From positions 7,962,309-8,026,308 of the forward strand of contig OU744446.1 of assembly GCA_916610825.1 (NCBI GenBank): a DNA stretch of 64,000 nucleotides. Direction: 5' to 3'. Position numbers and translations under genes: made by a program. Positions 388-64,000 of this stretch are shown here, piece by piece; positions within the stretch are counted from its first letter, which is position 1, and each line of letters starts with the position of its first letter. Origin of the DNA: Haliclystus octoradiatus. Its lineage: Eukaryota; Cnidaria; Staurozoa; Stauromedusae; Haliclystidae. The notes beneath the pieces were generated by a model. That model saw only the letters and a list, made by a program, of their open reading frames with translations, was not told the DNA's origin and searched no databases.

Positions 388-803
388 GTTCTCATAGGTC
401 GTGGCTAGATCAGGGGTAACTCAAGGACATTTTATGATTTTTTATGGATTCTTTTATTTGTATTAAATTTGGTTTTCAACCGATTTTTAAAATTCTTTTT
501 GCATTTGATACCTTTGTATATTTATCAAAAATCTACCATGTATAATTGAAAAATTAAAAGTTTTTCAACTTTTAAACTAAGCTTCGTGATAAAACTTTTT
601 GGCTGATTAACATTTGTTGCAAGAATTTTTTCATTTTTTTTATTTTAGACAAGACAGATTTGTAGTAAATATATTAAGGTACGATATGCAAAAAGAATTT
701 TGAAAATCGACTGAAAACAGAATTTAATACAATTAAAAGAAGCAATAAAAATTCATAAAAATGTCCTTGAGTTACCCCTGATCTAGCCACGACCGTTCTC
801 ATA
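388..803. mobile_element. Foldback MITE with 9-bp target duplication
   Basis: The element spans 397-794 (398 bp) and is flanked by the direct repeat GTTCTCATA at 388-396 and 795-803. Its ends are inverted repeats more than 100 bp long, starting GGTCGTGGCTAGATCAGGGG and ending with the complement. A 9-bp duplication with very long inverted repeats is typical of Mutator-like (MULE) non-autonomous elements. An 8-bp hAT duplication cannot be excluded, because the subterminal CAGGGGTAACTC matches the hAT-like MITEs at 26.8 and 32 kb. There is no coding capacity. Confidence 0.8.
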
Positions 804-32904: not shown

Positions 32905-32910
32905 TTTATT
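32905..32910 (-). terminator. Poly(A) signal overlapping the oxygenase stop codon
   Basis: The minus strand reads TAATAAACATG at the end of the coding frame, so AATAAA begins two bases inside the TAA stop. Whether it is the signal in use is unknown. Confidence 0.4.
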
Positions 32911-33316
32911 ATTTTCCTAAAGCAACTGTAATTGACCGCTTCCCAGTAAAAGGCATGCGACCATGTTGCACTTGAAAATTATCTATGACAAGAACGTCCA
33001 TTCTTTCTAGTTTAATCGCTACACTATTATCATATGTAACTTGTCTAACATTACGACTAAATTCTTTTTCAATTTCCTCTCCGTCTCCATATGTCACATG
33101 AGTTGGGCATTCGTCATCGTTCATATGCAACCACTTCTCAGCGTCATCATGAAAACGAAAATTATCACATGAAGCAAGTGTCATTTGATTAAACCAGAAT
33201 TCCTCGCCTGTTACGGGATGGGTCCGTAATGGTCCACGGTTGAACCAAAAATGTAACCAGTTGTTATCACGCCATTCCCAGCATCCATTACTTTTTTCAA
33301 GTACTCTTTCAACTTC
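32909..33316 (-). CDS. Oxygenase last exon with the distal His and Arg
   Basis: 408 bp after a TTCAATTCAAG acceptor. It contains WFNQM, GDGEEI and VIDNFQVQHGRMPF. The final residues are VALGK, then TAA. Confidence 0.85.
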   Translation of the reverse strand, partial: EVERVLEKSNGCWEWRDNNWLHFWFNRGPLRTHPVTGEEFWFNQMTLASCDNFRFHDDAEKWLHMNDDECPTHVTYGDGEEIEKEFSRNVRQVTYDNSVAIKLERMDVLVIDNFQVQHGRMPFTGKRSITVALGK

Positions 33317-36300
33317 CTTGAATTGAATATACAAGGAAAAAAATAATAATATAAGTTCTTGTTGCTCAAAGAATTATGAGATTTCATAGAAATGAATGTC
33401 TTATTTATACCATGAGATACCATATGTCATGTTTATGATTAAATTTTGACAGAAGAACAAAAGAGGTAATGTTAGAAATTTAAAACAAATATGAGCATTT
33501 GAAAAGCCATCTTCTTAAACAACAAAAATAGTAGTTTTCTAATAATTTCTACCTGAAAATAACTTATGACATACATGCAGTTATAACGTATAGTTTATCT
33601 TAGGCGTAGGAATTGGGGCAAAAGTGGGCCTTTTCCCAAAAAATGTATTGAGAAAAAATTCATGGCAGTTTTTCGGTTAGGGCAAATCAATAAATTGTAA
33701 GTTTCTTTTGGTACTGTGAAAGTGTTCAGAAACTTTACTCTGCATTAATAGAATTCAACACATTTTGCAAAAAAGGTTTTATAAACAGATGTATATGCAT
33801 TGCCTGTAAGCCTAATCGCAAGCCTCCTTCTTATCACTCTCCAATCTACTATTCATAATTAATTTTATTCAATATTAATGGTAGCTATATCGCTTAATTA
33901 TTCTGAAGAGTCTACCCCTACCCGTTTTTCAATATAAAAAATCCAGAACTCAGCTACACGCTTTATAATTATATTTACGTCTGAAAAGATTAATTAAGAC
34001 TGTAAGTTGTGACATGATCATTGTTGCGTTGATCCAATTAATGTTTATGAAGAAACGTTTATCTCAATTTTCGGGAAGATCAAATTATTTCTTATATCTC
34101 TTCAATAAAATAAAATTATTCAGTCATTCGGTATTTCGCGTAATATGTTGAGTTATGCATGATGCTGAAAAATAAAAATAATCAGTGAACAATAATCCAA
34201 ATTATCTTGCTCGCTCCACTCGTGACAATTCTTATATCCTAATAAATTTCATTTCATATGTATGTATGTATTTTTGTTTGTCAAATATGACGCGAGCACA
34301 TAGGGATGTACATCCACTTACGTATGCCGCTGAATAATTTAATAGCTAAATACAAGTAGTTTATTATACTTGTAATCATTTATATAACGAATAATATCAT
34401 AATTTTTATTGTATTTATTTATTTATTTATTCTCAATGATTTTTGAGAAGTAGTGTTAAATTAATAAATTAAATTAAATAAAAATGAAGAGAGGTGTTAG
34501 TAAAAATTACGATATTGACTCAGGTCTAATTTATTCCGTTCTGATTTGAAACTTGTGACATTTCCACAAATCACTATACATTGTTAGAAAGTTCGTGCCA
34601 CCATGATCTCGTTCGTATGGCGAATGCATGCTGGACGATGCCGGTTTAGGGACTTCTGGACATTGTAATTGCAGAGAATGTCCGCGGAGGTCATGTTTGT
34701 CATTATTAAACTAAAAATATCATCAAAGTTTAATTCGACTATAGTCCTTATCGATCTTAAATACCATACATAGATCTTGCTTTAATCGACGTAGCTCAAG
34801 CGTCTCAATGTCTAAAGCATCTAGCCTGTCCTTGTAGGAATCGAATTTGATTCCAGATACCCAACACAGATAACTTGTGAATTTTTGTTGAATTCTTTCA
34901 ATGCTATATTTATCATTTACAAGTTGGGGACTCCATACAGGTGTCGATGACTCCAATACTGGCCTAATATATACTTTATATGCTCTTAGCAGCATAGTTG
35001 AGTCTCTGGAGATAAATAAGCGCCTCACAAGTTAGCTCATCGATGAAGCTTTTGATACCAAATGGGCACAATGGTCTGAGAATTTTTAATTACTTGTTAG
35101 ATAGATACCAAGATCACGACATTTAGATAAATGATGTAGTTTATGATCTGCTATAAATATTCTTGCTTAGAAATGTTCATGTTACCAAAAGAAAAAACAT
35201 GACTTTTAGAAAAAATATTTTTATTTGCCAAGTATCACACCAAGTCACCAAACTTGTTAAAGTTGTTGATAAAGGGGTAGTGATTAGTGATTAGTGATTA
35301 GTAAAGCAAATCAATAAAGTGCCAAAATAGCTGAAACTGTTTATCTAGCATCAAACTCTTTTCGGCTGCTTAATTCCTTTCATAATTGCTTCCATTATCA
35401 ATCACTATCTGTGTCATTATTTATTGTTGCCAAACAATTTGAATTTCGTTACTTATGCAACCCAACGTGAACACTTTCGCTATTAACTTGCAAATATATA
35501 TTTCTTCAACCTAGATAAATTTCATCAGCTACAAAGACTTCTAAAAATCAGCTACTATGGTTGGTGTGTTTTTGAAATCCAACACCGGGAGAAATTTATA
35601 TCATTGTCCAAGCAATAAAATATTATATTTTATTTTGACAAACAGAAAACGAAATGTAGAATTGAAGCCTGCACTTATTGGAAAACAACGAGTTGAATGA
35701 ATAATTCGAATATTTAGCTTGGAAATCGACTGAGAATAAAGCAAAACACTGGACGATACCCAGGCACACAAGCTTTCATATACTCAAATATGTGTAGCTA
35801 TAGATAGGCCTACTGTTTGTAGCTATATCGTGTTTGTGATTAGTTAAGTTATTGTGTTTCGTGATCTATATATACCTGTTTATAAGAATTTGCTTTTAAA
35901 ATCGTCGTTTTTTGTTGTTGCGCTTTCTATCATTCTCTCATGAAAACTATGATAGCTTGAATGACCCTATCCTATAAGAACACGTTGAACTTTCCAATGC
36001 TACGGTTAGAGCATTTACAATTAATTTCTACTCTATTCCATTTTTAGGGATTAAACTCTGAAAACTGCTAGTCATCTGTATAAGCGTAAGTGCTTGTGCA
36101 TTTGGGAGATCTTTGCGCTCACACCTTTACAAGTCGTACGAACGTTGTTGCCATACTCAAGGCAACCGTAGCACTCCTCTAATTCTAGAGGAGTGGATTT
36201 TTTCGCTGAGAGCAATGATGTTAAACGCTCTTTATTGATCTTAGCCGTGACACTGCAGATCAACTTAAACAGATTTCATGGCAGATAGGTCTCGATTGTC

Positions 36301-39300: not shown

Positions 39301-42300
39301 AGATAGGTATGTGCCATATGGTGAGAAATAACGCCATGTCGTGTACCCCTTTACCTGAGAATCACATCAGTTTTTATACCACACCCCCACTAGTTATTCT
39401 CTAATTCATTGGCATTAAATATTTCAAAATTATCGTCAGTATTTGCATTGCTTTTTGCGCTATTGTGGATGAAATGACACCCGGGAAATACAAAGGATTG
39501 TACGTTATTTCATATAATCGAGTTTAAAGTCTGGCACAAGATTTCAAACTTCTTACCGTATTACAAGAAACAAGACTACTCCTGAACATGCTAAGCATGA
39601 GTTTAAGTTAGAGAATTTGAAATGTGTTACAATATATAACAAACCTTTCCAGAACAGTTGTCAGAATATGCTTGCTCGTTGTGTGGCTCAATTATTTTAT
39701 GCGGTGACTCTGTTGCACTGGCTTGGTAGAATGCACTGTTGTCTTTATCCACCGGGCGGCTAACTGTTCCACCTTTATTGTACATGTATTCTGTATTTTC
39801 ATAATCCAATGAATTATATAACACAGCAAAATCATCAACAGAAGGAAGAGGAAGACCTTTGAATAATACAGCACCATGTTTTAATAGGTTTCTACCAAGA
39901 TATTCACGACAGTGTTTTCCAATGTTCTCCAGTGAGCTCTCATTTTCACTGGTAAGAACTGGTAAAAATTTGACAATGTGTGGTAAACCATTATGTTGAC
40001 CAAGTTTCACTGGAGGCATCAATTGATCTTTGTATCCAGGGAAATATTGACATTTTCTAATGTCGATTACTTGTTCTTGATTTTTATCAATGTCAAAGTT
40101 AGTTTCAGCATATAGGCATACATCGTCAGTTGATACTACAGGTAAGTCATGTAGATAGCGTATCAACTTGAAATAAACTGAGATTCGTTTCTGGTTGTGC
40201 CTTAGTATGCAATATATCATTGTGATAATCGCTAAAATATATTTAAATCAACAGAAATGAGCTTCAACAGGTAATAAACTGTACAGACCGCTATATATTA
40301 CTGATCCATCAAAAACTGTGTAGTGATAATCAAAAATTCACATAAAATATCTTTGTTCATGTTGAAAATAATTTTCCGCTAATTTCTTGTCGGCTTTCAT
40401 AGAGAGTAATTAAAAATTATACAAACGCCTCAGGAGCTCCACGAATGGTCGAAAAATATTTCAACAACCAGTCCATTGTAATTGGTATAAAGTAGTTACT
40501 TCATGCGTTACTTCATGGTTGATGAGTTTACTATTCTATTTAACTTGTGTATTGTGGAAACCACTTCACTTTGCTGGTTTTATAGTTGAATTGTATTGTC
40601 TAAATCATGAATATACTAACACTGAGTTACCCACTTTGCTGAATGATCTGTGATGCATACATACACTCATACCATTTACTATTATAAGTATACCAATGCA
40701 CAACGCCAAGTTTTAGCAACTGCATATACAACAATAAAGCTATTTCACATCAGCCATATTGTAAGACAACATAGTTGTATTCTGGTTTGGTATAACAATG
40801 GGCCAACAATGCATCCCGGGGTCACAGTCTTTTCAAAATACACCACCTGGGCTATCAATCTTTTCTTTAAGGAATTCTCGAGGGACTCGATGGGAAGATG
40901 TGAAAAGCTTTTTCTTTCTACGGCGATGGTGACGCTGGAAGCAAATATCTGCAATGCATGCAAGAGAAGGGAACATTATGAAGAAAGGTAAACACTTTGA
41001 AGGGATGTAAATCGTGAAATTGTAATTGTTAACGAATGGTTCAAAATGTGAACATGGCTTTACATTCATAATGATCCTGACTCAATTTTGTGGAGTTTAT
41101 CAAGACATTTCATTGAGGCCATTATTCGAAAAGCAATTTGATCATTGCGTTGATGACAAATTAAGTTTATTGTAAATCCTGATTTCTAAAATTTTAATAG
41201 ACTTAAAGACATAAAATTGACTGGCAGCCTTTGCGGGTGCGCGATTAATATGGTGCATGATACACCTGTCCATTACTCCATTAAAAAGCTGCGGTGGCCT
41301 ACACTGATTTGTTGATATTTGAAACAAACTGAAAGGTTGTAAATGTTAGGTCGCTAGTATCTTGTACAGTTTGCATGTAAAAGTACAACCACTCCAGGCC
41401 CGACTCCAGGTAATAAAATTGTACGTGACATGACTACTGTCGGAAGTAGGCTGGTCTAGTGTATTTTTCAATTTGTAATTAGTGTCAATCAAATGAATTT
41501 TAATTGCATAAATTATTCACTAAATTCTTACAGCATGGTGCTATTTCTGAACTAAACGTCAGGGTTTTTTCCTTCTTTTGAATCTGTTAATTTTGTTCAT
41601 ATATCAAATTTTTATAATGGCGAATGCATCTTCCCAGAATGATGTAGATATAGCTATAGACGTATTAATAGAGGGCCAAGGATTAGACCATACAAATTGT
41701 TATGGGTCTGAACTGTATGATTCGGAGAGAGAATGCACTGTTGGCAATGATTGTCCAGATGAAGTAGTTTAGCCTAGTTTGTTAATTTGTACACTAACAT
41801 AAATGCAAAAGTTATGTAATTGCTACTGCAATGCCAAATGTGGAAGAGACTAAAGTTCAGGAAATTAATCATTGTAGCTATAGGTGGTAACATGTAACTG
41901 TAACAATCTGTGTGTGAGAAAGTCAGGTAAACATGCTGGCTGCCCCTGCAGAGATGCCAACAAGATAGTTTGTGTTCTGCAACTAAAGACAGTTGTGCCT
42001 ATCTGCAACCATGCTGCAACATACAGTTGTGGGAAAAAACAACGAACAACTGGTAGTTAAACCTTGTAAAAATGCGTGGAAAGTAAGTAATAATTGTAGT
42101 CATAATTCTGAGAATTTGATATGATACATTTCTTTCTCAAACTCTGGTTCCCGTTTTTCTACCAGGATTCTACAAATAAAGACAATGCACCAATCCATGA
42201 AACTGAAGGGTTTTTAATTTTATTGCGTTAATTCAACGAAGAAAAGGTCATGGTAGAGGTTTGTGAATATATTTCATATAGCAAAAATTTTGGTTCTTCT

Positions 42301-46362: not shown

Positions 46363-47238
46363 ATGACTGATAAAAATGACTTGGCTGCAGCAGCGCGACC
46401 GTCGATAGTTTTAGATGCTGCTCTCCAAGAAGCTTTGCTGGCAATACAAAGAATCAGCTCAACCTGTGAACTACCAACACCAGAAGTAATCAAATTTTCA
46501 GGTGAAACAGTGGAATTTCCACGTTTCAAATGTCGTTTTCAGGAATTGGTTTTGGATAAATCACTGAGCGAGACACAAAAAATTTCTCGACTTTTGCAAT
46601 TTGTTTCCGGACCAGCACTGACTGCGGTTCAATGTTACGAAACTGCTGACCCTGGAAAACTAAAATTAACTTTAAATTGTTTAGACGAAAGATATGGTCA
46701 AGAGTTTTCAATTGTTGACGCCTGTTTAAAATCTATCACAGATTGCAAGCAAGTAATTGAAGGAAACGCTACTTTGTTTCGTGAATTTTTTGACCGAATC
46801 AGAGCAACTAGAAACACTTTGAGTAATCTAAACTGTCTTAACGAGAAATCAAACGATGACATCTTTGAAATGGTCTCAAAAACGCCAGACAATATAATAA
46901 ACAAATTGTTGGATGAAGTTTGTAAACTCAGAGAGGCAAAAACAAAACCAACGATCGATCATTTTTTGAAAATTCTTGATCGCCAATCAAAAGCACTGAA
47001 CGATCCGATATTTGGGAAGTTAAAATCACTAAAAGCCAATAAAACAATGAAGGATTCAATTTCAATTCCAGTAAAATCAAACAACTGCGACACATATAAA
47101 ACGTCAACGATGACAACAACAGGCAACGAAACGAAGAATTCATCCTCAACACCATTTATTCTTGTTTGTCCTTTATGCGGGCCTTTATGTGAAGACAATC
47201 ACAGATTAAATGTTTGTACAAAATTCCGAGACTATTAA
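46363..47238 (+). CDS. BEL/Pao Gag ORF fragment, 291 codons
   Basis: The longest intact reading frame of the element. It contains the Pao Gag capsid-like domain (VIKFSGETVEFPRFK, then LLQFVSGPALTAVQ) and ends just before the zinc knuckle, which lies in another frame after a one-base shift around 47220. Confidence 0.8.
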   Translation: MTDKNDLAAAARPSIVLDAALQEALLAIQRISSTCELPTPEVIKFSGETVEFPRFKCRFQELVLDKSLSETQKISRLLQFVSGPALTAVQCYETADPGKLKLTLNCLDERYGQEFSIVDACLKSITDCKQVIEGNATLFREFFDRIRATRNTLSNLNCLNEKSNDDIFEMVSKTPDNIINKLLDEVCKLREAKTKPTIDHFLKILDRQSKALNDPIFGKLKSLKANKTMKDSISIPVKSNNCDTYKTSTMTTTGNETKNSSSTPFILVCPLCGPLCEDNHRLNVCTKFRDY

Positions 47239-49092
47239 TTTGAAAGACGGTTTGAATTTTGTGAAAGAAATATCATTGTGTTTTCGTTGTTTAAAACCTC
47301 GACATATCTCAAGTGACTGTAGAAGCAGAAATCTTTGCGAAATTGGTGCAAACAGCGACATGCCACACTACTACATTGTCCTGAACAACAAAGAGACAAT
47401 ACGCAAGGAAATGCTAATAGCACACACATGGACAACAACGATATCACAGATACAACTGAAGCCACTTTCAATCATTGTCAAGCAACATCACAGATGAACG
47501 CAACTAATGCTTTAATGCAGACTATACCAGTAAGATTATACGGACCTCGGGGAAGCCTAGACGTTTACACAATTTTGGATTCTGCATCAAACGTAAATAT
47601 ATGTGAAAATTGGTTTCTTAAAAAATTGGGAATAAGGGGAACAGTAGGACATTTCTCCTTGACAACAGTGAATACTAAATCAAATGAAGTCTATGAAAAC
47701 AAATCTGACTATATCAAAAATCAATCAGAAGGAGCCAATCATAAATTTAAACTCTGTATGGACAGTCGAATCACTGAATATTACACCCAAGGGTGTCCAA
47801 GACGTAGATGTCAATCAGTATGATCATTTGAAGGATATTCAATTTCCAAAATTGACAGGTACATCAGTACCATTGCTGATAGGGACATGCTGTCCAGAGG
47901 CTCTGATTCCAATAAGCTACAAAAGGTCCGGAACAAAGAAACAACCTTAGGCAATCGAGACAGTACTTTTATGGTCGGTAATTGGACCGTGGGAAAGTTC
48001 TTCACCATATCAATGCCATGTCAGCCAAATGAATGAAGACAGTGACCTGTCATTACAAGTAGCAAAATTCTGGAAAATTGAAAATTACCCAACCAAAATA
48101 GAGGTGTTAAAGAATATTCCGTTGAGGATTGCAAAGCAATGTCTATAATTCAAAATTCTGCCACAAAGATAGATGGACATTATCAAATAGCGTTACCTTG
48201 GAAATCAGAGAATCCTTTGCCTGACAATTTGTCCATGGCAGAAGCAAGACTTACGTCACTCAAGGAACGTTTAATAGCTTATCCAATATTATTATCAAAC
48301 TACAAGGACGTAATTGACGGGCACCTATTGAATGGATTTTGTGAAAAGATTCCACAAAAAATTCAACAAAATGAAGAGAAGAAGGTATGGTACCTTCGGC
48401 ATCACCCAGTTATTAATCCCAACAAGAACAAAATTAGAATCGTCTTTGATGCAGAAGCACTGTATAAAGATGTATCTTTAAACAAATCCCTACTCCAAGG
48501 ACCAGGCATGACAAATAATTTGATAGGAGTACTGACAAGATTCCGACCTGGTCCAATTTAAATGTAGACATTGCAGCAGTGTTACATTAAGTCAGAGTAG
48601 TAAAAAGTAACACTGATGCATTCAGGTTCCTGTGAAGGGAAGATAGAGATTTGAATAAACCTCCAATAGCATTTAAAATGCTGGTACACATATTTGGCGC
48701 ATTTTCTTCACCTTCAATTGCAAGCTATGCACTTAAGAAAACTGCTGATGATGACACGAAGCTAAAAATTGTGTAAGGGAAAACTTCTATGTTGATGATT
48801 GCTTCGTTGCAGTACAGAGCGAAGAAGATGCTATTCACATGGCTTAATAAAGAGCTAACAGAATTACTAAAAACTGGTGGGTTAATGGATGAGTAATAGC
48901 AAACAAGTTTTGGAAACGATACCAAAAGAAGAAAAAGCACAGCCAACGTTGGACATCAACACAGAAGATCTCCAAAGGAAAGAGCACTGGGATTACAATG
49001 AGAGGCTGAAAAGGATGGATTCGGATTCAGAATTGTGGAAAATTCAAAACCATCAACAGAGAGAGGAATTTTATCAACTGTAAGCTCAGTGT

Positions 49093-49599
49093 ATGATCCA
49101 CTTGGGATTGCTATACCATTCACAATCAGGACAAAGATTTTTTCAGCATTTATGGAAATCAAAATTAAGTTGGGATGAATCTTTAGACATGAAACATTTG
49201 GAACCCTGGCATAGCTGGTGTGAAGAACTTCGTCAATTACAACATTTAACAATACCTCGTAACATCTTACCGATACCCCAACCAGAAGTTGAAAGAAATG
49301 AGCTCCATTCGTTTGCCGATGCATCAGAATACGCGTATGGTGCAGTCACATACCCTCGTCAAGTAAACAAAAATGGAACTTTCAAGTTGTCCTTTATAAT
49401 AGGAAAGTCAAGACTTGCACCACTAAAAAAACTTACAATCCCGAGGCTTGAATTACAAGCGGCTGTTTTGAGTTTACGCATGACTGAGAAAGTGAGAAGA
49501 GAATTACCGATACAAATAGATGATGTGGCTTATTGGACAGATTCTACTCTCGTACTTCAATTCTTGCAAAATGAGTCAAAAGATTTCAAACATTTGTAG
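49093..49599 (+). CDS. BEL/Pao RNase H fragment
   Basis: Open frame with DWSFADASE-type motif (HSFADASEYAYG), then RLAPLKKLTIPRLELQAAVL and YWTDSTLVLQFL, the classical BEL RNase H blocks. It ends at a premature TAG after NESKDFKHL. Confidence 0.8.
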   Translation: MIHLGLLYHSQSGQRFFQHLWKSKLSWDESLDMKHLEPWHSWCEELRQLQHLTIPRNILPIPQPEVERNELHSFADASEYAYGAVTYPRQVNKNGTFKLSFIIGKSRLAPLKKLTIPRLELQAAVLSLRMTEKVRRELPIQIDDVAYWTDSTLVLQFLQNESKDFKHL

Positions 49600-50202
49600 C
49601 AAACAGGATTGCAGAAATCTTAGAATAAACCAACACCTGTCAATGGAACCATGTCCCATCCAAGTTGAATCCTGACGACGAAGCCTCAAGGGGATTGAAA
49701 GTGAATGAAATACTAACAAAGTCAAGTTGGATTAATTGCCCATTATTTTTGCAACAAGATAAGACCAATTGGCCGATTCAGAATATGATATTTGATAATG
49801 ACGATTTAATTAGAAACCAAAAGGTCAAGAAGGAGGACAATATTTGCAACGCAACTATCCATTCAGATCTACCTTCCACTATCGAAAATCTTATTAACTA
49901 TTATTTATCATGGCTTAAGTGGCAATTCTCAGCAGCCTGGCTAATTAGATTTAAAGAATATCTGAAATGGAAGGTTCAGAAGAAGAGTAATGAGCTTATA
50001 AAAACCGGCATACTAACTATCCAAGAGATTCGCAATGCAATTTCCAGCATCATTGTTTGGGTACAAAGAAAAAAATATATAAAAGAAGTAAAATTGTTAG
50101 AAAAACAACAACACTTACATCAACAAATCTCTATTATCAAACTCCAACCTATTATCGTCAATGATATTCTACGTGTAGGAGGCAGAATCAACGAAGCACC
50201 TC

Positions 50203-51360
50203 TTGCATATGAAGTACATTATCCAATTATTATGCCTAAAGATTCGCCGATGTGTCTCATCTACTTATTTTGCATTATCATATGATACTTGGTCATGTCG
50301 GCACAGAACATGTTTTGGCAGATTTGAGGCAGAAGTATTGGATCATTGGTGCGAGGAAGGGATTAAAGAATGTATCGAAATTATGTGTCACCTGCCTGAA
50401 GGTAAGAGGAAAAAGAGGACAGCAAATAATGGCATGTTTACCATTCTGCAGATTGCCTCCCTTTCTACCACCATTTACGTTATGTGGTTTGGATTACTTT
50501 GGCCCCTTCCGATTAAAGAATGCAGCTCTGTCAAACATTATAGATGTATTTTTACATGTTTTAATATGAGAGCAGTCCATTTTGAAATAGCGTATTCATT
50601 GGACGAAGATTCATTTATTAATTTTCTACGTCGTTTCATCATCAAGAGAGGTGCACCGAAAGAAATTTGGAGCGACAACGGGACCAATTTTGTTGGTGCA
50701 AACAATGAATTAACAAGTGCATTAAAAGAATTGAATCAAGTGAAGGTTTCCAATTATTTGAGGGAAGAAGAGACAAAATGGCATTTTGATCCACCAGCAG
50801 CAAGCCACATGGGAGGAGTGTGGGTTAATACGAAGCACAAGAAAGGTCATGAAAGCTATCATTGGTGACGCTCTATGAATGACGAATCACTCCACACATT
50901 GATGACGGAAGTAGAAGCCATACTAAACGGACGACCAATTACTCCACTCAGTGATGATGTTACAGATGAAGAACCCCTAACTCCAAATCACCTTCTCACT
51001 CAACGAAGAGGTCCACAAAACCCCCCTGGCATTTTTACAAGTAATGACAATTATACTAGGAAGCAATGGAGAAGAACACAATTATTGGCAGACAATTTTT
51101 GGAAGAGATGGGTGAAAGAATACTTGCCTTTTCTAAAAAAGAGACAAAAATGGTGTGTTCCAACAATAGATATGAAAGTAAATGATCTGGTCCTGCTTAC
51201 AGACGACATCAAAACAAGAAATCATTGGCCACCTGCAAGAATAACACAAGTATTTAAGGGCAGCGACGGTTGCGTGCGCACAGTCAATGTTCAAATTAGA
51301 GGTTCCGTTTACACAAGACCAATAACAAAAATTTGTTCGCTACAAGCAATACATGATTAA
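50203..51360 (+). pseudogene. BEL/Pao integrase and carboxy domain
   Basis: Two frames across 50203-50868 carry the zinc-binding head and the DDE core (AVHFEIAYSLDEDSF, SDNGTNFVGA). After a TGA at 50866, the 161-codon frame from 50875 carries the DUF5641-like end. The catalytic acidic residues seem present, but the frame is not continuous. Confidence 0.8.
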
Positions 51361-54001: not shown

Positions 54002-54039
54002 GTACGTTATTAAAACCATTCAACACCCAGTAAACACAC

Positions 54040-54330
54040 GACGTCGTCGGGACAAATGACGACGTCGTGAATCAGGCGTCAGTACGTCGTTCGTGGTCGG
54101 TCGGCCTGGTGACTGATCCAGGACGCTTCACGACTTTTAAAGTTTTTTAATACCTCGTTTTGTCAGTCAAAATTTTATGACGAAAAGCGTGTATTTCTTT
54201 TGTTTATTTCTGGTTGCTTTTAAAGTTTAATTGATAAAAGTATCACACAAAGTAGTGAATCAGGCGTCAGTACATCGCGCGCGGTCGGACGGATTAACGA
54301 CTGGTCCAGGACGTTTCACGACCTGGTTGA
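54040..54330. repeat. Two diverged copies of a GTCGTGAATCAGGCGTCAG block
   Basis: A roughly 75-bp block starts at about 54068 and again at about 54258: GTGAATCAGGCGTCAGTAC, then GGTCGG, a GACTG, and TCCAGGACG(C/T)TTCACGAC. Each copy ends with a short inverse of its start (GTCGTGAA against TTCACGAC). Confidence 0.6.
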
Positions 54331-54360
54331 ACAAATTATAAATGATTATTATCTTTGTAG

Positions 54361-54376
54361 ACAAGGATCACCAGAG
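54361..54376 (+). other. Candidate 16-base micro-exon
   Basis: ACAAGGATCACCAGAG lies between TTATTATCTTTGTAG and GTAAGTCAG, both strong splice signals. Its use is unproven. Confidence 0.3.
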
Positions 54377-55044
54377 GTAAGTCAGTTCAAATCTATGTAT
54401 TGTAATTTAATACTTCTTCAGTAAGCTCAAAGTGAAAAAAAATTAAAATTTACAACGATAGCGAGGGAGTCGAACCGCAGACCCCACTTCTGTTGACCTT
54501 TGGAACGGGCTCGTGAAAGATATTCAATTTCTTCTACTGCCTACGACCCATTCTTTGGGTTGCTAGGGATACTGTAAAATGACGACGCCGCGAATCAGAC
54601 AAGGGGTCTGGGTTTGATATACAGTGTGCCGCGAAATACAAACCACGACTTTGACGGGAGGAACTATTTCTTCAATTCTTGTCAGTGACGCTCTTGCCTA
54701 TCAGTCGTTTAACGAATTACTCCTGAAGAATTTAAATTGTTGAATAAAATAGCGAAAAGTTACTCTGTTGTTGCCTCTTTTTACAAGTTAATTAAACAGA
54801 TATCACGCAATTCAAGGTATGTCCACTACCGACTTCTGTCATATTACTAGGCCTACACAGCCAGGATATCTTCTGATATACTTTATTTGCTATTCAATAA
54901 CGGGCACTACGTTTAATGGGTAAATCTGGACAAGGAGAACACTGCGCGAGAAATATCTAAATAAAAACATGCAATAGAATAGATAATATCTAATTATGAT
55001 AGAGCAATAATATACAAGTGTAACTTTTTCAAGTGTGAAAAATA

Positions 55045-55303
55045 CCCCGGGGGACTTACATACATTGGCTATACGGGGAGACATACTATTTTCAAGGGGC
55101 GCCTTTTCCAAATTCTTGAGAAATTTTGTGGTGCTATTTTAGAGATACCGAAATTTCAGAACTTTTAGTTTTATTTACTCGTGGAAACATGAAATTTTAG
55201 GGTCTCCGTCCTTACTTGCTGTGAACTTTTGGGGGTTTCTTCTCAATTTTTGAAAATGGCACCCCCCCGTCTGAAATATATCGAAGTAAGCCCCCCCCTG
55301 GGG
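55045..55303. mobile_element. hAT-like MITE with CCCCGGGGGACTTAC ends
   Basis: The left CCCCGGGGGACTTACATA and right GAAGTAAGCCCCCCCCTGGGG ends are inverted. Flanks AAAAATAC and GAGAATAC match at 6 of 8 bases, a plausible old 8-bp duplication. Confidence 0.6.
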
Positions 55304-55567
55304 GAGAATACAATAATTTGATATTTATTAGTGTCAATTTGGGTTTGCTATCATTATAGATGACTATTGATAATATAAGTTAAAGAAGAGCTATTGTTAT
55401 TTGTGTTTTATCATAAAATAGTAATTTATCTTTTATCATAATTAAATAAGATGACTTTTTATTATGAAACATAACGCAGTTGGAAGTCAACTGCTCTGCA
55501 ACGCATGCACCACTGACACAAATCCTATAATAAAAATAAATAGTAAGTTATTACATATATTCTCATA

Positions 55568-56001
55568 TTCGTTTATAGGGATGCACCGAATCTTCTGTTG
55601 GCCGGAAAAAGTTCTGTGATTCCGGCCATTTCACCGAACCAGCCGGAACCATTTCATTAGATTCGGCCAGTTCGGCTAATATACATTCTAGCATCACAAT
55701 AAGAAAGATAATTGAAAAATAAACGTCTTAATCAACGAAGTACATATTCTATTATTGAATAACCATCATCGTCGCATGTTTTTAGACCTCCGAGACTGAT
55801 GTTTATGAAAGAAAACTTACTGAATCTCGAACTTACTGAAACTTACTGAGCCTTGAACAAGCTTTTCTAGTCAACACAAAATTTCCTAAAAATTTTTTCA
55901 AGTTCTGCAGAATATTCGGCCGGAATTCCGGCAAGCTTGACCGAACCTCCTGGATCCGGCAAGTGGCCGAAACATGGGTTCGGTGCATCCCTACTCATTT
56001 A
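55568..56001. mobile_element. hAT MITE with TAGGGATGCACCGAA ends
   Basis: The element at 55576-55993 starts TAGGGATGCACCGAA and ends TTCGGTGCATCCCTA. Flanks TTCGTTTA and CTCATTTA agree at 6 of 8. The interior is rich in CCGGAA/TTCCGGC. The termini match a widespread animal hAT family. Confidence 0.8.
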
Positions 56002-57039
56002 TTATTAAACATTCAAATTTTTTTCAGTTTAATAATATAAGTCAATCCGGAATGAAAAAATACTAGAAATGTTACACCGGAATTAGCTCCTGGCCAATTT
56101 TTCGCAAATAATATTTTTATGAAGCTATTTGAGGCGAAACAAAAAAGTTATTCAGTCACATGTTTAGAAAATTACCAAAATAGCTGGTGCGCGACTGCTA
56201 TTTGAAACACCACAACTTTTTGTTCGTTTCTTCTCTAACCAAAACAGCACAGGGTAGAATCCAAGCAAGTATATCAAAGTGCAATAATCAGAAGAAAAGA
56301 AATTGGGAGACATTTTAACTGACCTATATTGTTATGCTGAGCAATTCTACATCCTTTTCATACCAAAAAATTCTTGATAAGGAATTTCAAAATGATGTCA
56401 AAAGTTTTGACTACTATGCTATAGATTGGAGCAAAAAATGGATTTTATACAATTTTATTATAAATAGTACTAGAAGTTACAAATTGGATAACGTAAAATG
56501 TAGCATAGCCTGTCATAAATAGCCCTGACGTGAGTATAGATTAGACTGGTTGAAATAAAAATGAAAATGTTCAAGGCACAATCCATTTCTCATTTGACTT
56601 GCTCTAAAAAGTAGTTGTCCAAAATTTGAAGGTTGTCCGACATCGGGAAATGGGCATGCCCAAGGCGTCTCTAAATTAATGCATAATGCTGATGGGGAAA
56701 AACACTCATATTTTTCAACAGGGGAAAGCTAATTATTATATACATTGTGAGGAACAGGCATTTTTTATTGGAATAGTCTAGGGTTAAATAGTCTAACCAA
56801 TATATTGAAATTATTGAGAGCACTATCAGCAAGGCCATCTCTTGAAATCTGTAAAAATCTTTCAGCAAATTTGAGATAATCGACATTAAAAATATTAGCA
56901 CTTTCCTAATTAACTTTACATATCAATTTATCAACTTAAATTTTTTCTTTGCAACTTAATGTGTATTTGGTCAAATACATTTTAATTCGTAGACATGATA
57001 ATCTACATAATTATTTGTTGTTCTATTACGAACGGATGA

Positions 57040-57305
57040 AAGACGTCACCATGGAAACATCAATAGAACAATCACATGAATCCTTTTTCAACTTGTAACC
57101 CCCGGTTTATTGCCATATAAAGGCAATTACGGAGACAGTCACGGCTCTGTGATGAAGGTGTATTTAATTCGGTTTGCTCGTATAACGCGAAGGCGCGCTT
57201 AATGCATTAGGTTCGCTGTTAGGGCGCTTAACAGCGAACTTAATTCAAATGAAAGAAATAATCGAAATGTATTAGGTTCGGTTCGCTAGTATAATCCATG
57301 CCTAA
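57040..57305. mobile_element. Partial relative of the Harbinger-like MITE
   Basis: CCCCCGGTTTATTGCCATAT, CAGTCACGGC and TCGTATAACGCG follow the same order as at 12470-12580 in the larger element. The right end, GGTTCGCTAGTATAATCC then TGCCTA, is diverged. Confidence 0.65.
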
Positions 57306-59440
57306 TGTTTAATGTTGTTACTACTTAGATATTAAAATGGCAAATAGTGTAACTGAAATCCGTATCATGTTTAGTTTAATCTTTTCCAAAACGCTTCAGT
57401 AATTGCATTGTAATATTGTCAGCGCCGGATTAACATTTCAGGGCCAATAATCACTCCCTCTCCAAAGGGCCCTAAAATGGGTGTGGCAATCATAGAATTA
57501 GCCTCACTTTCAAGTTATCATCTCAGTTTGAATTCATAGTCGCCATTTTATTTTTGTCCGAAGAAAAACGATTCACGCAAAAATAAAATGTTGTTATTGC
57601 AGTGGTAGAATGATAGTTTTGCAGTATTTAAAAAGATTTTGAAAGATTACAAAAGACACAGTATTATTTGTTTTATCAAACCTATTTTGTTTTGCTGTTT
57701 AAATTAACTTTACACTATTCAAAACAAGATCGAATGATGAAAACATTTGTTGAATGTTTAGGCCTACTTTTGAAAAGTATTATTCAAATTGTTGCTATTC
57801 GATTAGCATTTAATATACTAGTAAAATCAGTAGATAGTTATCTTACAAATTGATTTTTTTTAAGGGCCCTTAAAAAACGAAGGGCCCTAAGCTGAAGCTT
57901 ATTTAGCTTACGAGTTAAGTTTTCAAGATTATATTATAGCTAACTGAAATCGAATAACGCGTTTGCAATGTCTGTTTTGCAATGGCAATCTTAAATGGCT
58001 GTTTCTAAATATAGACTTGATATTTTTTCATCTAGTTTTTTTACATCACTTCGATACACGTTTGAATATGACATACTGAGAAATGAAATGAATTGTATTG
58101 CCCGTTTTAGTATGAGAGACATTTAAAGTGGAAAAACATAAAAACCGGCTTTTTTCAAGCTATAACCGGAGGACGGATAATAAACAACATTACAAAGCTT
58201 GAAAACGAGGTACTTTTCAGCAGCAAATGGGTTGTAGCTGACAGACATGTGATGTCTACAAGCGCGTCAATGTTTTCGGAAAGGTGGGTTGTTCACACCA
58301 ATTGAAATTTCTAAAACGTAAACACGATTTTGATACCGTAGAAGTCAGGATTGCCATTTTTCGTTCGGATCTGACCACAAATTAGTTTATAGCATTTCAA
58401 TAATGAAATACAATTCTAGTGGCTAGATGTTAACTATTCATGTAAGTTTTGTTCATTTACAAACCAAATGTGTTCTCTGTATTTGGTTTTAAATAATTCA
58501 GGAAATTCGATTCCATTATATTCCGCATTTCACCGATTTTGGCGCCAAAAGTTATGTAGATGTGACAATCACATTCAAAGTTTAGTTACGAAGTGTTATT
58601 TCAATCACATACTGTATGATCCTTGATTGTATGATAAACATAAAATGCTACGCTGATTTATAAATATTAGTTATCCATGCCAAGCATGCTTGAGGTTCAT
58701 TAGAATCATTAATCAGAAACTAAAAACAGATTAAAAAATTGAAAAACTAGCGGCGTGTAATTTATCTCGTAAATATGAAAATACACATTAATATTGATGC
58801 TAGATAGAACCAATCGTTTAAAATTTGCTACATGATAACTTACCATCAAGATAGTGAATGTGTTTGCCCAGCATAGGCCAAACATTTGTTTTGTCCTTAT
58901 TAAAGTTTACGTAGCAATCATCGTAAACTTGTGCAATGATCACTTGTATTTATTGTGACATATTAATATTATCCATTTTCTTCAATCATACATGAAAAAT
59001 ACATGAACAATCACATGATTATGCGATCTATGACTAATTCTGGAGTAAATCAAACCAAGATCTAACCTGCAACTGTATCAACATTTATTTGCACACTTTT
59101 TCAACACGCCACATCCCACAATGCAGCGGAAGGACAAAGCCTCTCAAATTAGTTATGAAATCTCAAATGGAGGCTACCAGAAGTAGTTGATTTTCCACTT
59201 GCAGATTACATTTTCATTTTATCACAAACAATGAAATGAATTACATTATAGAAATGCAATTCATATTTTCTAACAGCCACAACAAGGCAATGATAATTAT
59301 CTAACTGTCAACTACTATAATTCCATATATACCTCTATATAATCTATGTATTGTCATAAATTAATTAATAATATCTATCAATAGTATCTGTCCGATGATA
59401 ATAAAGCGATAAACTTCAAGTTACAGAAAATGAATGCGTA
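57306..59440. other. No gene recognised
   Basis: Contains AGCGCCGGATTAACATTTCA near 57421 and two GAAGGGCCCT/AAAGGGCCCT blocks near 57465 and 57885, perhaps ends of a further repeat. A perfect TTTTGGCGCCAAAA palindrome lies at 58537-58550. Confidence 0.35.
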
Positions 59441-59515
59441 GTCTTTGACTCCATTATTATTATTTACGCTCTGTCAAATGACATTGAACACTATCTCAAC
59501 TGCTGTTAGATACCA

Positions 59516-59673
<158 letters not shown>

Positions 59674-59891
59674 TGAAGTTATTACGTTACAGAAATGAAA
59701 TTCATCTAATGAATGTGTAGCCTTTGACTCTATTTCATTATTAGTGATAAAAATAATAATAAAAATAATACATTCATTTAATAATTTGGTGTAGTAAAAA
59801 TCGAAGTCGCAAATTACTTTAGTTCTGAAGTTAATAAAAAACATTACAATCAAATGATTAAACAATGCTTCATTGCATAATCTTTAGATTG

Positions 59892-61895
59892 ATGGATCGT
59901 AAGTCAAGGAAAAGAATATGGATGAAAGCTCACAGGGAAACAAAAAAAGTTACAGAAAAAGCACATAAGCCTAGCAAAAAACCAAAAGTTACAAAAAAAA
60001 AGGATAACTCAAACAAGGAGTTTGAAATAAACCCTGTCTTGATTGCAAATGATGGTCTTGATTCATCCCCTTCTGGCAATGAGAGTGACGGGCCAATGAA
60101 CGAGCCAGTGCTAGTAGCTACATATCTAAATTATGGATTTAATGGTGATTCTGAAGCATGTCCTAATAAACCATATGTGCCAAACAAAAAAGATAATAAC
60201 AAAAGCAGTGAAGTAGCTAAAGACATAATAGATTGGTGCAAATCATATAACGCAACAATGAATTCTACTGACGGTATATTGAAATTAATACATAAGCATT
60301 TTCCAGAATGTAGTACATTGCCAAAAACTGCAAGAACTTTATTAAAAACACGGAGAAATATAAGACTGTCAAAAGTTTCTGGCATGGATTACTATAATTT
60401 TGGTCTGGAAAATCAGTTGACAGATTTCCTTTCTAAGCTGGATAAATCTGTAATTTCAAGTCTACCACTTATAGAGCTACTATTCAATGTGGACGGCGCT
60501 CCTCTATATCGCAGTTCGAGATCTTGCTTTTGGCCAATACTCTGCACAGTCAGTAATATAACTCCAAATATCGTCTTCCCTGTGGCAATTTGTGCAGGGT
60601 ACAGTAAACCTAAGGATTTACATTTTTTGGACAATACCGTAAGTGAATTGAGAACGTTATTGAAAGAAGGATTAGAGGTGGGCATTGAATATTGCCTCAA
60701 AGTTAAAGTTAAAGCAATTGTGTGCGATGCACCAGCAAGGGCAATGCTCAAACGGATGAAAAATCACTCTGGTTATCACGGATGTGATAAATGTGAAGTC
60801 AAAGGAGAATACTCGAGAAAAGTTATATTTACATCAGTTGGGCGAAAACGAACAGATTTCAGGTTCCGTAAAAGAAAAGACATTGAACATCATCATCAAA
60901 TAAAGAGGACACCTTTTGAAAGAATCAAAGATATAAATATGGTGAAGCAATTTCCAATATGTTTCATGCATCAAGTCTGCCTTGGAGTTATGAAACGTCT
61001 TATAAAAATGTGGATTACTGGAAAACGACGATATAAGTTATCGTCCGCTTTAATCAGAAAGGCAGACCAAAGGATTAAACTTATTAAAAAAACAATTCCT
61101 GCTGACTTTGCCCGAAAACCCAGACGTCTCTGTGATTTTAAATTCTGGAAGGCAACGGAATTCCGGTTATTTCTTCTTTATACTGGGCAATTCATACTGA
61201 AAGACATTCTCCCACAGAAAGAATATAAAAATTTTCTATGCCTAAGTATAGCTATGTGCATTTTAGTGAGTCCTGATTTGATTAAAAATAATGATAATGT
61301 TAATTATGCAAGAAATTTGTTAACTTACTTTCTACAAATGTCAAGAAAATTATATGGCAAGGGATTTATGGTCTACAATGTGCATTTACTTGCACACATT
61401 GTGGATGATGTACAAAATCTGGGTCCATTGGATAGCTTTGCTGCTTGGCCCTTTGAGAGTTTTCTGGGTTCTTTGAAAAAGAGTGTACGATCTGGGAAAA
61501 AGATGTGCACAGAGGTTGTCAACAGAATATTGGAAAACAAAGAGTGTGTCCCTGTTCCAAAAAAGTCTTTTAATAATCAACATTTCTTTTCAAAGAAAAT
61601 CTCTGCAAAGGAGCCAGACAACATTTTTTATGCTGGAAACAACACTTATTGTGAAATTGTAAAAATTATTGATGTGGATATTAAGAACATTCCAACATAC
61701 ATTTTGTGCAAGCAATATAAAAGTTGTATTCCAATTTTTGAAGAACCTTGTAGATCAACCTTAATTGAGTTTGCAAAAACAATTTCAACAAGATACAGAA
61801 TGAAAGTAATGCCAATTGAAAAAGTATTATCAAAGTGTATCACCTATGACAAGGGAAACTGGAAATTTTTCTTAACCTTACATCATCAATTTTGA
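59892..61895 (+). CDS. TNP2-like transposase (EnSpm/CACTA superfamily)
   Basis: A single-exon, intact frame of 667 codons from the ATG at 59892; a further in-frame ATG at 59865 would add nine. Residues 1-45 are very basic (Lys-rich, nuclear-signal-like), then a Ser/Asp-rich segment. Family blocks follow: LLFNVDGAPLYRSSRSCFWP near residue 200, VCDAPARAMLKRMKNHSGY with GCDKC near 290, FPICFMHQVCLGVMKRL near 365, KFWKATEFRLFLLYTGQ near 430, and YNVHLLAHIVDDV with FAAWPFESFLGSLKK near 510. These correspond to the Tnp2-type transposase and its DUF4218-like carboxy region. No stop or frameshift was found, so it may be recent or active. No CACTA-type termini were identified in the window. It probably cuts and pastes DNA in the nucleus. 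Confidence 0.85.
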   Translation: MDRKSRKRIWMKAHRETKKVTEKAHKPSKKPKVTKKKDNSNKEFEINPVLIANDGLDSSPSGNESDGPMNEPVLVATYLNYGFNGDSEACPNKPYVPNKKDNNKSSEVAKDIIDWCKSYNATMNSTDGILKLIHKHFPECSTLPKTARTLLKTRRNIRLSKVSGMDYYNFGLENQLTDFLSKLDKSVISSLPLIELLFNVDGAPLYRSSRSCFWPILCTVSNITPNIVFPVAICAGYSKPKDLHFLDNTVSELRTLLKEGLEVGIEYCLKVKVKAIVCDAPARAMLKRMKNHSGYHGCDKCEVKGEYSRKVIFTSVGRKRTDFRFRKRKDIEHHHQIKRTPFERIKDINMVKQFPICFMHQVCLGVMKRLIKMWITGKRRYKLSSALIRKADQRIKLIKKTIPADFARKPRRLCDFKFWKATEFRLFLLYTGQFILKDILPQKEYKNFLCLSIAMCILVSPDLIKNNDNVNYARNLLTYFLQMSRKLYGKGFMVYNVHLLAHIVDDVQNLGPLDSFAAWPFESFLGSLKKSVRSGKKMCTEVVNRILENKECVPVPKKSFNNQHFFSKKISAKEPDNIFYAGNNTYCEIVKIIDVDIKNIPTYILCKQYKSCIPIFEEPCRSTLIEFAKTISTRYRMKVMPIEKVLSKCITYDKGNWKFFLTLHHQF

Positions 61896-61909
61896 CGGAT
61901 TTTAAAGCT

Positions 61910-61925
61910 TATAGTCTATAGACTA
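61910..61925. repeat. Short palindrome after the transposase
   Basis: TAGTCTATAGACTA is a perfect 14-bp palindrome about 15 bases after the stop codon. Confidence 0.6.
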
Positions 61926-62465
61926 AACACTAAATTAATATAGTATTAAAGGGTTATCATACACTTGCTATGCATTTTATCAATTATATAAATGAAAATC
62001 GGCATGGCCAAAAGGCTTAGCCTCCAGGAGTACTAGAACATTTTCAATTTTTCTCTTCTGTTTTTTTTAATCAAAAATAGATTCTATAAATCAAAATTGA
62101 TAAATTTTTCCATGAGTTTGGTTGTAGACTTCTAGGATCCCACTTTTGTCATGCCCTAACTTACTAGATCCCGAAAGGCTAGAGCAAATTCAGAAGAAAA
62201 TTAGCAATCTTCTGATTTATAAGCCAACCCATACTGTACATAATTAGCCTACATAAATACATATGTTAGAAAAAATGTTGCAAAATTAAAACAAAACAAA
62301 ATAATAGCCATTTTCAACAAGAAAATGCTGCTGTTGGAATATTACAAAGATTTGGACATTCAGATAAAGGTAAAAAATCTGAATGGTATGTTATATAACA
62401 TTTTAAACTGCATTGTACTTTCATTTTCTTTGTAATAGTATATTACCTTCAATAATCTATCCCGG

Positions 62466-64000
62466 ATGTCAACATACACCGTCGTCGAATTTGAACAGGA
62501 TAAGACTACTGCTGTAGTTCCAAACCAATGGCTTTCTGCAATTAAAGATAACAAAGTAATTTGAAAAGGCATTCAAGAGCTCCACAAGTATAAAACTATA
62601 AATTTATAAATGCATAACTTTGTTAATGAATTCAATGTGATATAAAATAGGGGTATTGCTATTGGCCAAAAGATGGAGCAGGATGGAAATCCAAAAAAAA
62701 TCATCCTGTCAACAAAAGCAGATGGGACAAATATAGAGTATGCATACGCAAAAGATTCGGTAAATATATTGTCTCACATTGATAAAGTAATTTGAAACTT
62801 GCAACACACAAAAAATTGTTTGTGTTGAAAAATTACTGATTTTCAAAATAATGTATGACGTTCTAAAGATACATACATGGAAGGGAGAAGGTACAGTGCT
62901 GAGGTATCTGCAGAATCAACAGAATATGAAAAACAGCTGCAAGTAGGAGAAGGTGATAAATATCAAGACTGAAATTTTATCAATGCTAGTATCCAAAGTG
63001 AAGTTAGAATGACTCATATTGAGATAACTTTTAATTGGCTGTTTGATATTTATAGATACTATTAATGATCAGCAGTATGTTACACCGCCTTCAAGAAAGA
63101 AGAAAAGGAAGACGCAAGTACGAGAAGAAGGTGATAAATATCAAGACTGAAATTTTATCAATGCTAGTATCCGAAGTGCAGTTACAATGACTTATATTGA
63201 TTTATTTTAGAAATTTTGGAAACGCTATTCTAAAATATCATGTCATCATCCTGATATCCCGTGTGATTGCACAGGCCCAAAATTATGCATTTTGTTTCCT
63301 AATATAGAATTACTAATTAATATTTACAAATTAATATTTCCCTTGCGAAAAAAAGTTCATAAGTTCATGAACGTGAAATTGCCCAAAAGATCATGAACCA
63401 TTCATGAACAGTTCATGAACTTTCAGGCAATTTCATATTCATGGACCTGTTAATGAACTGGTTAATGAACTCTTTGTGACTTTTCATGAACTGTTCATTA
63501 ACTGTTCATGAAATTTCAGACATTGTTTCACAAATAACTATTGTTTTAGTTCAACCTTCTATCAATTTCATAAGTTAAACAGAAATATCTGATGATTTTA
63601 GGATAAAATGGTACAGTACTACACACTTACCGTGCTTGTAGGCCTATCAATATTTACTAAACTCAGAAAAATTGGAAGACAGTCCGGAAGCTGAAAACCT
63701 AAGGTTTGCTTTTGAAACCATACGGTCTGTAAACTACATAACATGTGGTTTTCTGCCTAGCTCAAATAGCACCTAAATGAATTTCGTAAATTATTCAATT
63801 CCTAATTTCACGCTGTCACAAAACACAAATTGTTGTTACATCAAAATATCTGTATAATGACATATAATAGATAACTGTCACAAGTGTTGTTTGTTATTTA
63901 AAGATACCAGCACTGATGAGCCAGATTACCCAACTCCACCTCCAAGAAAAAGAAAGACAGTGCAAGAAGAAGGTAAGTAATCTAATATATGGCTAGCATG
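62466..64000 (+). CDS. Multi-exon transposon-associated protein, 5' part
   Basis: Five exons join in one frame: 62466-62555, 62651-62759, 62869-62952, 63056-63130 and 63904-63972, with GT-AG introns and phases 0,1,1,1,1. The gene runs off the window. The start MSTYTVVEFEQDKTTAVVP and the next-exon GYCYWPKDGAGWKS resemble a domain seen at the amino end of proteins encoded near EnSpm-like or BEN-type genes in invertebrates. The later exons are short, start with Asp-Thr and carry PPSRKKKRKTQ or PPPRKRKT, nuclear-signal-like basic patches. Same strand and about 570 bases after the transposase, so it may be the element's second gene. Function is unknown; DNA or chromatin binding is inference. Confidence 0.6.
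62952..63220 (+). repeat. Tandem exon-intron duplication
   Basis: The intron after the exon ending at 62952 begins GTGATAAATATCAAGACTGA and the intron after the exon ending at 63130 begins identically. The match continues for about 70 bases with a few substitutions, through AATTTTATCAATGCTAGTAT and ATGACT(C/T)ATATTGA. A roughly 178-bp unit was duplicated. Confidence 0.85.
63350..63525. repeat. Cluster of TTCATGAA palindromes in an intron
   Basis: The words GTTCATGAAC, GATCATGAACC, ATTCATGAACA, GTTCATGAACT and GTTCATGAAATT occur within about 170 bases. TGAAATTGCC and GGCAATTTCA near the two sides of the first part are inverted, so the cluster can also form longer hairpins. It lies in the fourth intron of the gene above. 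Confidence 0.75.

Follow-up and report, generated by a model that had tools for sequence, protein, structure and literature searches.

The window analysed here is a 64,000-nucleotide stretch of the Haliclystus octoradiatus genome (C1:7962309-8026308). Its right-hand part holds two tandem genes on the forward strand, one for a TNP2-like transposase and one for a partner protein, inside a DNA transposon that continues past the window's end. We regard the identity of this CACTA-related element and of its gene pair as close to certain. The genome searched comprises 261.9 Mb in 33 contigs, and coordinates called extended continue the window numbering past 64000 within locus L009.

The transposase open reading frame (ORF) is free of stops whether it is read from the first ATG (59865-61895) or from the second (59892-61895, 667 codons), and the transposases of two relatives (L002, MERIMKKRVW; L005, MDRAGYKRIW) start at the counterpart of the second. 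The original prediction, which described an undisrupted 667-codon transposase starting at 59892, was thus correct on both counts. D210, D288, C307xxC310, H507xxxH511 and E531 (numbered from 59865) are invariant in 6 of 6 aligned transposases from four families. In the available text of PMC12730594, the signature of EnSpm and Plavaka is given as catalytic D, D and E with C(2)C and H(3-4)H between the second D and the E; the window transposase has this CACTA/EnSpm (CMC) combination, the catalytic residues being assigned by the signature and not by structure. Matches to Pfam are sub-threshold: 20.7 bits against DUF4218 for the window transposase (cut-off 27), 21.0 bits against Transposase_21 (cut-off 28.6) and 16.0 against DUF4218 for L002, and 23.4 bits against DUF4218 for L005. 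Weak Plavaka matches, also below cut-off, occur in three of the four relatives' transposases scanned. Compared with solved structures, the window transposase has no match at E <= 1.

The partner gene has ten predicted coding exons, which give a 364-amino-acid reading from MSTYTVVEF to a stop at extended 65190. Five of the predicted exons are outside the window, and the gene ends 1.2 kb beyond it, to the right of 64000, where the original prediction had suggested looking. Within the window the exons have AG/GT at the borders facing introns and keep a single frame throughout (62466-63972), which bears out the claim that they fit in phase, and the WP-containing amino domain and basic repeats that had been described are present as YCYWP, PPSRKKKRK and PPPRKRK. 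A further possible exon at 62325-62369 is open in phase; it is dispensable, since the partner start common to the sister families D and E (see below) is MSTYTVVEF at 62466. The basic stretches suggest that the protein is probably nuclear. In a first comparison of partner exons, the ratio of nonsynonymous to synonymous change (dN/dS) is 0.30 (6 synonymous and 7 other changes), and in another, in which the second copy has a stop, it is 0.15 (18.8 synonymous and 15.2 other changes; Fisher p ~1e-6). The partner exons thus show the signature of purifying selection. The coding features are as follows.

59892-61895, + strand: TNP2-like transposase ORF, intact, 667 codons (ORF reading, no stop; relatives aligned)
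62466-62555, + strand: partner coding exon 1, MSTYTVVEFEQDKTTAVVPNQWL block (frame and border reading, motif scan, family comparison)
62651-62759, + strand: partner exon 2, YCYWP block (frame and border reading, motif scan)
62869-62952, + strand: partner exon 3 (frame and border reading)
63056-63130, + strand: partner exon 4, basic repeat PPSRKKKRK, beside a 178-bp tandem repeat (frame and border reading)
63904-63972, + strand: partner exon 5, basic repeat PPPRKRK (frame and border reading)
extended 64067-64168, + strand: partner exon 6 (predicted)
extended 64253-64449, + strand: partner exon 7 (predicted)
extended 64577-64736, + strand: partner exon 8, DUF4806-like block (predicted)
extended 64887-64981, + strand: partner exon 9 (predicted)
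extended 65077-65190, + strand: partner exon 10, with the stop codon (predicted)

Ends, copies and derivatives of the element

The element is 12,274 bp long and runs from 54026 to extended 66299, which is 2,299 bp beyond the window end. Its borders were read from alignment with a second copy on contig C6, which matches it in five blocks at 87-99% identity; past the borders, the flanks of the two copies differ (~40 to 65 bp read).

54024-54025, no strand: left copy of the 2-bp target duplication, CA (read at the alignment borders with the C6 copy)
54026-64000, + strand: part of the element within the window (alignment borders with the C6 copy at 54025 and 66302; ends read)
54026-54048, + strand: left end, CCCAGTAAACACACGACGTCGTC; the right end reversed is CCCATGAAACAAAAGACGTCTTC (read at the borders)
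54040-54066, no strand: two GACGTC palindromes near the left end, at 54040 and 54061, the first inside the inverted end
54025-56930: C6 block 1, 96.2% identity
56937-57874: C6 block 2, 98.8% identity
57867-58083: C6 block 3, 87.1% identity
58083-62593, no strand: stretch missing from the C6 copy, with the transposase ORF and the first partner coding exon (alignment with C6)
62593-63200: C6 block 4, 95.1% identity
62939 to extended 66302: C6 block 5, 99.0% identity
extended 66300-66301, no strand: right copy of the target duplication, CA (read at the alignment borders with the C6 copy)

The inverted ends are of the CCC...GGG type (CCCAGTAAAC / CCCATGAAAC). Because they do not have the CACTA or CAC form, the element is not CACTA in the strict sense; CCC stands at both ends, as in animal TRC elements. 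In the window copy, as in family D, a single pair of ends encloses the two genes. The window copy is flanked by the target duplication CA/CA, and the C6 copy and family D each by TA/TA; an exact 2-bp direct repeat flanks 7 of 9 further opposed end pairs picked among the matches listed, the exceptions being C2:605048 and C2:5574807. Taken together, 10 of 12 end pairs (the two family A copies, family D and the nine from the matches listed) have such a repeat, where 0.078 per pair is expected. The general end pattern CCCNNNAAACANNNGACGTC, with at most one mismatch, has 181 genomic matches, compared with 24 for the backward pattern.

We read the C6 copy (L029/L031) as an internal deletion derivative, with a shared AAA at the deletion joint and ~2.25 kb of other sequence between 56930 and 56937. 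Its substitutions relative to the window copy (6 of 737 exon columns and 17 of 2,540 other columns) are too few to speak to selection. Around the basic-repeat exon there are tandem repeats ~178 bp apart (62939-63022 and 63114-63200 in the window copy), and matches at this spacing are more numerous in the C6 copy than in the window copy, so partners from different copies may differ in how many basic repeats they have. The 141-bp left end has 26 genomic matches at E <= 0.001, three of which are internal repeats in copies already counted; among these matches are derivatives of 3,014 bp and 77 bp bounded by the window element's two ends. The original prediction had named inverted termini as something to look for and a complete lack of mobile copies, as for a domesticated gene, as a refuting outcome. 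The termini are the CCC...GGG ends with their CA/CA duplication, and with the C6 copy and the short derivatives they are evidence of mobility. A domesticated single gene is rejected in view of the copies, the ends and the target duplications.

An empty site was sought with both flanks: the left 500-bp flank has four partial matches (70-77%) that stop before the junction (query <=355 of 500), and the right flank matches only itself in the genome. Nothing gene-like was found in the element's left 5.8 kb, in which the longest stop-to-stop stretch is 113 amino acids, partly simple repeat, and in which no exon-by-exon search was made. Between the partner gene and the right end is a ~300-bp palindromic repeat (extended 65254-65573, L009) that also occurs at window 426-758 with 70-75% identity. 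To the right of the element, open stretches at extended 66867-68079 (L009) resemble, by eye, the remnant of a hAT-type transposase.

Pairing of transposase and partner in relatives

The genome contains at least 71 transposase matches. Ten relatives, 38-48% identical to the window transposase, were examined from the best of the matches listed, the window itself excluded. In 9 of these 10 (transposases 41-48% identical), on several chromosomes, a partner lies downstream on the same strand. The relatives' partner exons encode VEF...VVP..W, YWP (YP in family D), a DUF4806-like block and a C-terminal block, with the set incomplete in some. With the window copy as family A, the relatives fall into four further families: B, whose five copies share 97-99% identity across kilobases, C, D, and E, which has two copies. 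The transposases of two family B copies differ by 5 synonymous and 9 other changes (dN/dS 0.48), which is too few for a firm ratio.

When three partner motifs were scanned against both strands of 11 stretches (the window extension and the ten relatives), 20 matches were obtained in 9 of the 11. All 20 are on the transposase strand, downstream of the transposase and in the same order, compared with 1 match in 20 single-base shuffles of 73.7 kb, one strand; the motifs derive partly from the scanned sequences, so the scan shows order and place and is not an independent discovery. Partner loci were located genome-wide with exons of families A, E, D and B as queries. Of the 93 rows returned, 49 were entered, and the remainder fall at loci already represented, except C2:30396768 (E 0.53); on the transposase side, 57 of the 71 listed rows were used, the other 14 being inside two loci already counted. 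Among the matches listed, this gives 33 partner loci and 38 transposase loci. Twenty partner loci have a same-strand transposase no more than 13 kb away; 3 are near one on the opposite strand, as inverted duplicates in family B, and 10 have none nearby. With C2:30396768 restored, 20 of 34 partner loci are near a same-strand transposase (17 of 30 from rows at E <= 0.01 only). The chance that a random place is that close is 0.004, or ~0.2% each when strand halves it. For three of the kept partner loci the best supporting row has E 0.1 or worse (C5:9077165, C6:12178511 and C4:33173746), and the partner at C4:33173746 was confirmed in its sequence stretch. Among the 20 paired loci, C6:19475418 is scrambled and the two genes of C2:26525528 are 11.6 kb apart.

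Chance neighbours are rejected in view of the pair in 9 of 10 relatives together with this co-location. Because the pair recurs in distant sister families of the same genome, the two genes very likely travel and work together. The original prediction of a two-gene EnSpm-type unit is therefore supported by the ends, the target duplications, the second copy, the derivatives and the relatives, in which pair, order and strand are kept; the genes are not found separately in all relatives, an outcome that would have spoken against it.

No left end was detected for any of the five long copies of family B within the sequence stretches examined. In four of these copies (C2:35236177, C6:8448090, C5:11082980 and C2:5148809) there is an inverted extra DUF4806-type exon 6-14 kb away on the transposase's other side, and some of the long copies have long inverted repeats in the left arm. 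Outside this genome, no relative was confirmed from 99 pattern matches in a genome-contig collection or from 39 in viral contigs.

A candidate end-binding role for the partner

In addition to the two GACGTC palindromes near its left end, the window element has four more within 300 bp of its right end. GACGTC occurs 17 times in 1,500 terminal bp (five 300-bp ends, namely both of families A and D and the right end of B). By comparison, 28.4 kb from the interior of elements contains 3 copies, and the 54 kb of the window that precede the element contain 9. This contrast between terminal and interior DNA is large and common to three families.

The partner's DUF4806-like block points in the same direction. 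DUF4806 is termed a BEN-type DNA-binding domain in the part of PMC11075544 that was available. Against the Pfam profile (PF16064) the family E block scores 25.4 bits, which reaches the cut-off of 25, and the family C block scores 19.3 bits, which falls short of it; the profile has no match in the family D partner or the window partner. The blocks of C, D and E align to the window's at 19-38% identity, and those of families A, C, D and E align with L, W, G, K and F invariant. Searched against solved structures, a profile of the block gave three chance-like matches, with no BEN protein among them. The Pfam DUF4806 search of the genome gave no match, and is weakly informative in that control genomes likewise gave none; an intron that splits the domain would explain this.

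Based on the ends, the gene pair and these two lines of evidence, we conclude that this is probably a DNA transposon related to CACTA elements, belonging to the TRC kind found in animals and carrying two tandem genes, the second of which would encode an end-binding protein like plant TnpA. For the binding itself, we lean towards the view that the partner contacts the element ends, and a helper role is plausible given the DUF4806 match and the GACGTC clusters. The TnpD-like transposase would cut at the CCC ends and insert with a 2-bp stagger. The partner, through its putative BEN-like domain, would bind the GACGTC palindromes near both ends, pair the ends and load the transposase, in a manner resembling the cooperation of TnpA and TnpD in maize Spm; according to the available text of PMC1636069, TNPD interacts with TNPA, making the latter's DNA binding more stable.

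Several observations weigh against this interpretation. The GACGTC motif was selected from the same ends in which it was counted, so its p-value overstates the case, and one GACGTC near each end of the window element is part of the inverted end itself. The two ends of the window copy match each other imperfectly, and 2 of the 12 end pairs have no 2-bp repeat. No Pfam family reaches its cut-off in the window transposase or the four scanned relatives, the assembled partner protein of the window has no Pfam match at all, and a single-sequence structure model of the transposase is unusable (mean predicted local distance difference test score, 36.6). At C2:26577205, an open 653-amino-acid frame 38% identical to the window transposase has no partner in the 10 kb examined. 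Eighteen of the 38 transposase loci have no assigned partner, although the number is really 17, since C2:21504789 does have one that was merged with its tandem neighbour in the count; many of these loci, but not all, are short fragments. Conversely, no transposase match was found within 13 kb of 11 of the 34 partner loci.

One alternative concerns how the two proteins are made. Alternative splicing of a single primary transcript could yield both, as it does in Spm and SmTRC1, and we judge this to be nearly in balance, tilting slightly against it: the partner start is ~570 bp past the transposase stop, and in the available text of PMC1636069 SmTRC1 clone B4 and Spm tnpD hold both ORFs in tandem, but the partner's own start is common to families A, D and E. 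Rather unlikely, in our view, is a real two-gene element in which the partner instead regulates the promoter, steers insertion or counters host silencing. BEN domains have been linked to chromatin-modifying factors (PMC11075544, in part), TNPA of Spm also acts on the element promoter (PMC1636069, in part), and the GACGTC clusters could be promoter elements; however, GACGTC is found at both ends, even in gene-free derivatives of 77 and 318 bp. We regard it as extremely improbable that a lone transposase simply sits beside an ordinary host gene, whether by chance or through domestication. In its favour, 11 of the 34 partner loci are distant from every transposase match, but the same pair, order and strand recur in 9 of 10 relatives on several chromosomes, one end pair encloses both genes in the window copy and family D, one lone partner locus is the C6 deletion copy, and the lone loci C8:11815453 and C8:21230507 are within 4 kb of family-B-type ends (C8:11812173 and C8:21227736).

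Beyond the TRC-like transposon with its putative end-binding partner, we tentatively propose that DUF4806/BEN-type proteins, in which a VEF...VVP..W / YWP module at the N terminus would be joined to a C-terminal domain of BEN type that recognises GACGTC arrays, may be the missing TnpA counterpart of animal TRC elements. DUF4806 genes have been reported as expanded families, with no role assigned, in two Hydra species (69 and 54; PMC7642931) and in zebrafish (four on chromosome 4; PMC11075544); if the proposal is true, these expansions would be such helpers or their descendants. It would give a role to a large, nameless animal gene family and supplies a motif and fragments for testing.

Elsewhere in the window, a BEL/Pao retrotransposon split among several ORFs occupies 46363-51360 (+ strand; Pfam DUF1759, Peptidase_A17 and DUF5641). 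Pao-type retrotransposons are not known outside animals, in keeping with an animal host. Two ORFs that match the TauD dioxygenase family on the - strand, 32909-33334 (47.0 bits) and 39627-40220 (21.2 bits, below the cut-off of 27), are probably exons of one or two genes.

Comparison with known systems

Against known DUF4806 proteins, the family E partner block reaches the curated cut-off (25.4 vs 25), and the window's own partner differs from them in being unmatched in Pfam. Plant CACTA elements have deletion derivatives and clustered subterminal motifs, as here, but have CACTA ends and 3-bp duplications in place of CCC ends and 2 bp. Plant TnpA binds the subterminal repeats of its own element, and the GACGTC end clusters are compatible with such binding. 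Maize En/Spm likewise has two proteins, one of them with the transposase domain (PMC1636069, in part). Fungal Plavaka/EnSpm elements share 2-bp duplications, in PlavakaA, but differ in their ends (TGT..ACA and CATCA..TGATG) and in their extra gene, a TET/JBP dioxygenase (PMC12730594, in part).

The closest likeness is to TRC elements. Elements of this name, CACTA relatives from animals that end in CCC and are flanked by 2-bp repeats, were reported in 2006, with two tandem ORFs in SmTRC1, in the available text of PMC1636069, and the suggestion in the original prediction that this is an undescribed system is thus too strong. The element is of a known kind, and its conserved second gene was not found described in the literature searched: no account of a conserved DUF4806 partner in such elements was found there, a scope that left aside Repbase, supplements and most subscription papers, and the DUF4806 passages available from PMC7642931 and PMC11075544 make no tie to such an element. 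The window element resembles TRC elements (SmTRC1 of Schistosoma mansoni, and those of Aedes, 9.2 kb long, and Tribolium) in its probable Transposase_21-type transposase, its CCC ends (Aedes CCCAGTCAAC; here CCCAGTAAAC), its 2-bp direct repeats (7 of 14 SmTRC1 copies; here 10 of the 12 end pairs read) and its tandem ORFs, the second of which encodes PrA in SmTRC1 (PMC1636069); this likeness is by published description. The analysis yields full-length copies of an animal CACTA-type element that are delimited at their ends and carry both genes. In contrast to TRC elements, whose other proteins are not detectably conserved according to the same available text, the partner with its DUF4806-like block is kept between families whose transposases share less than half of their residues.

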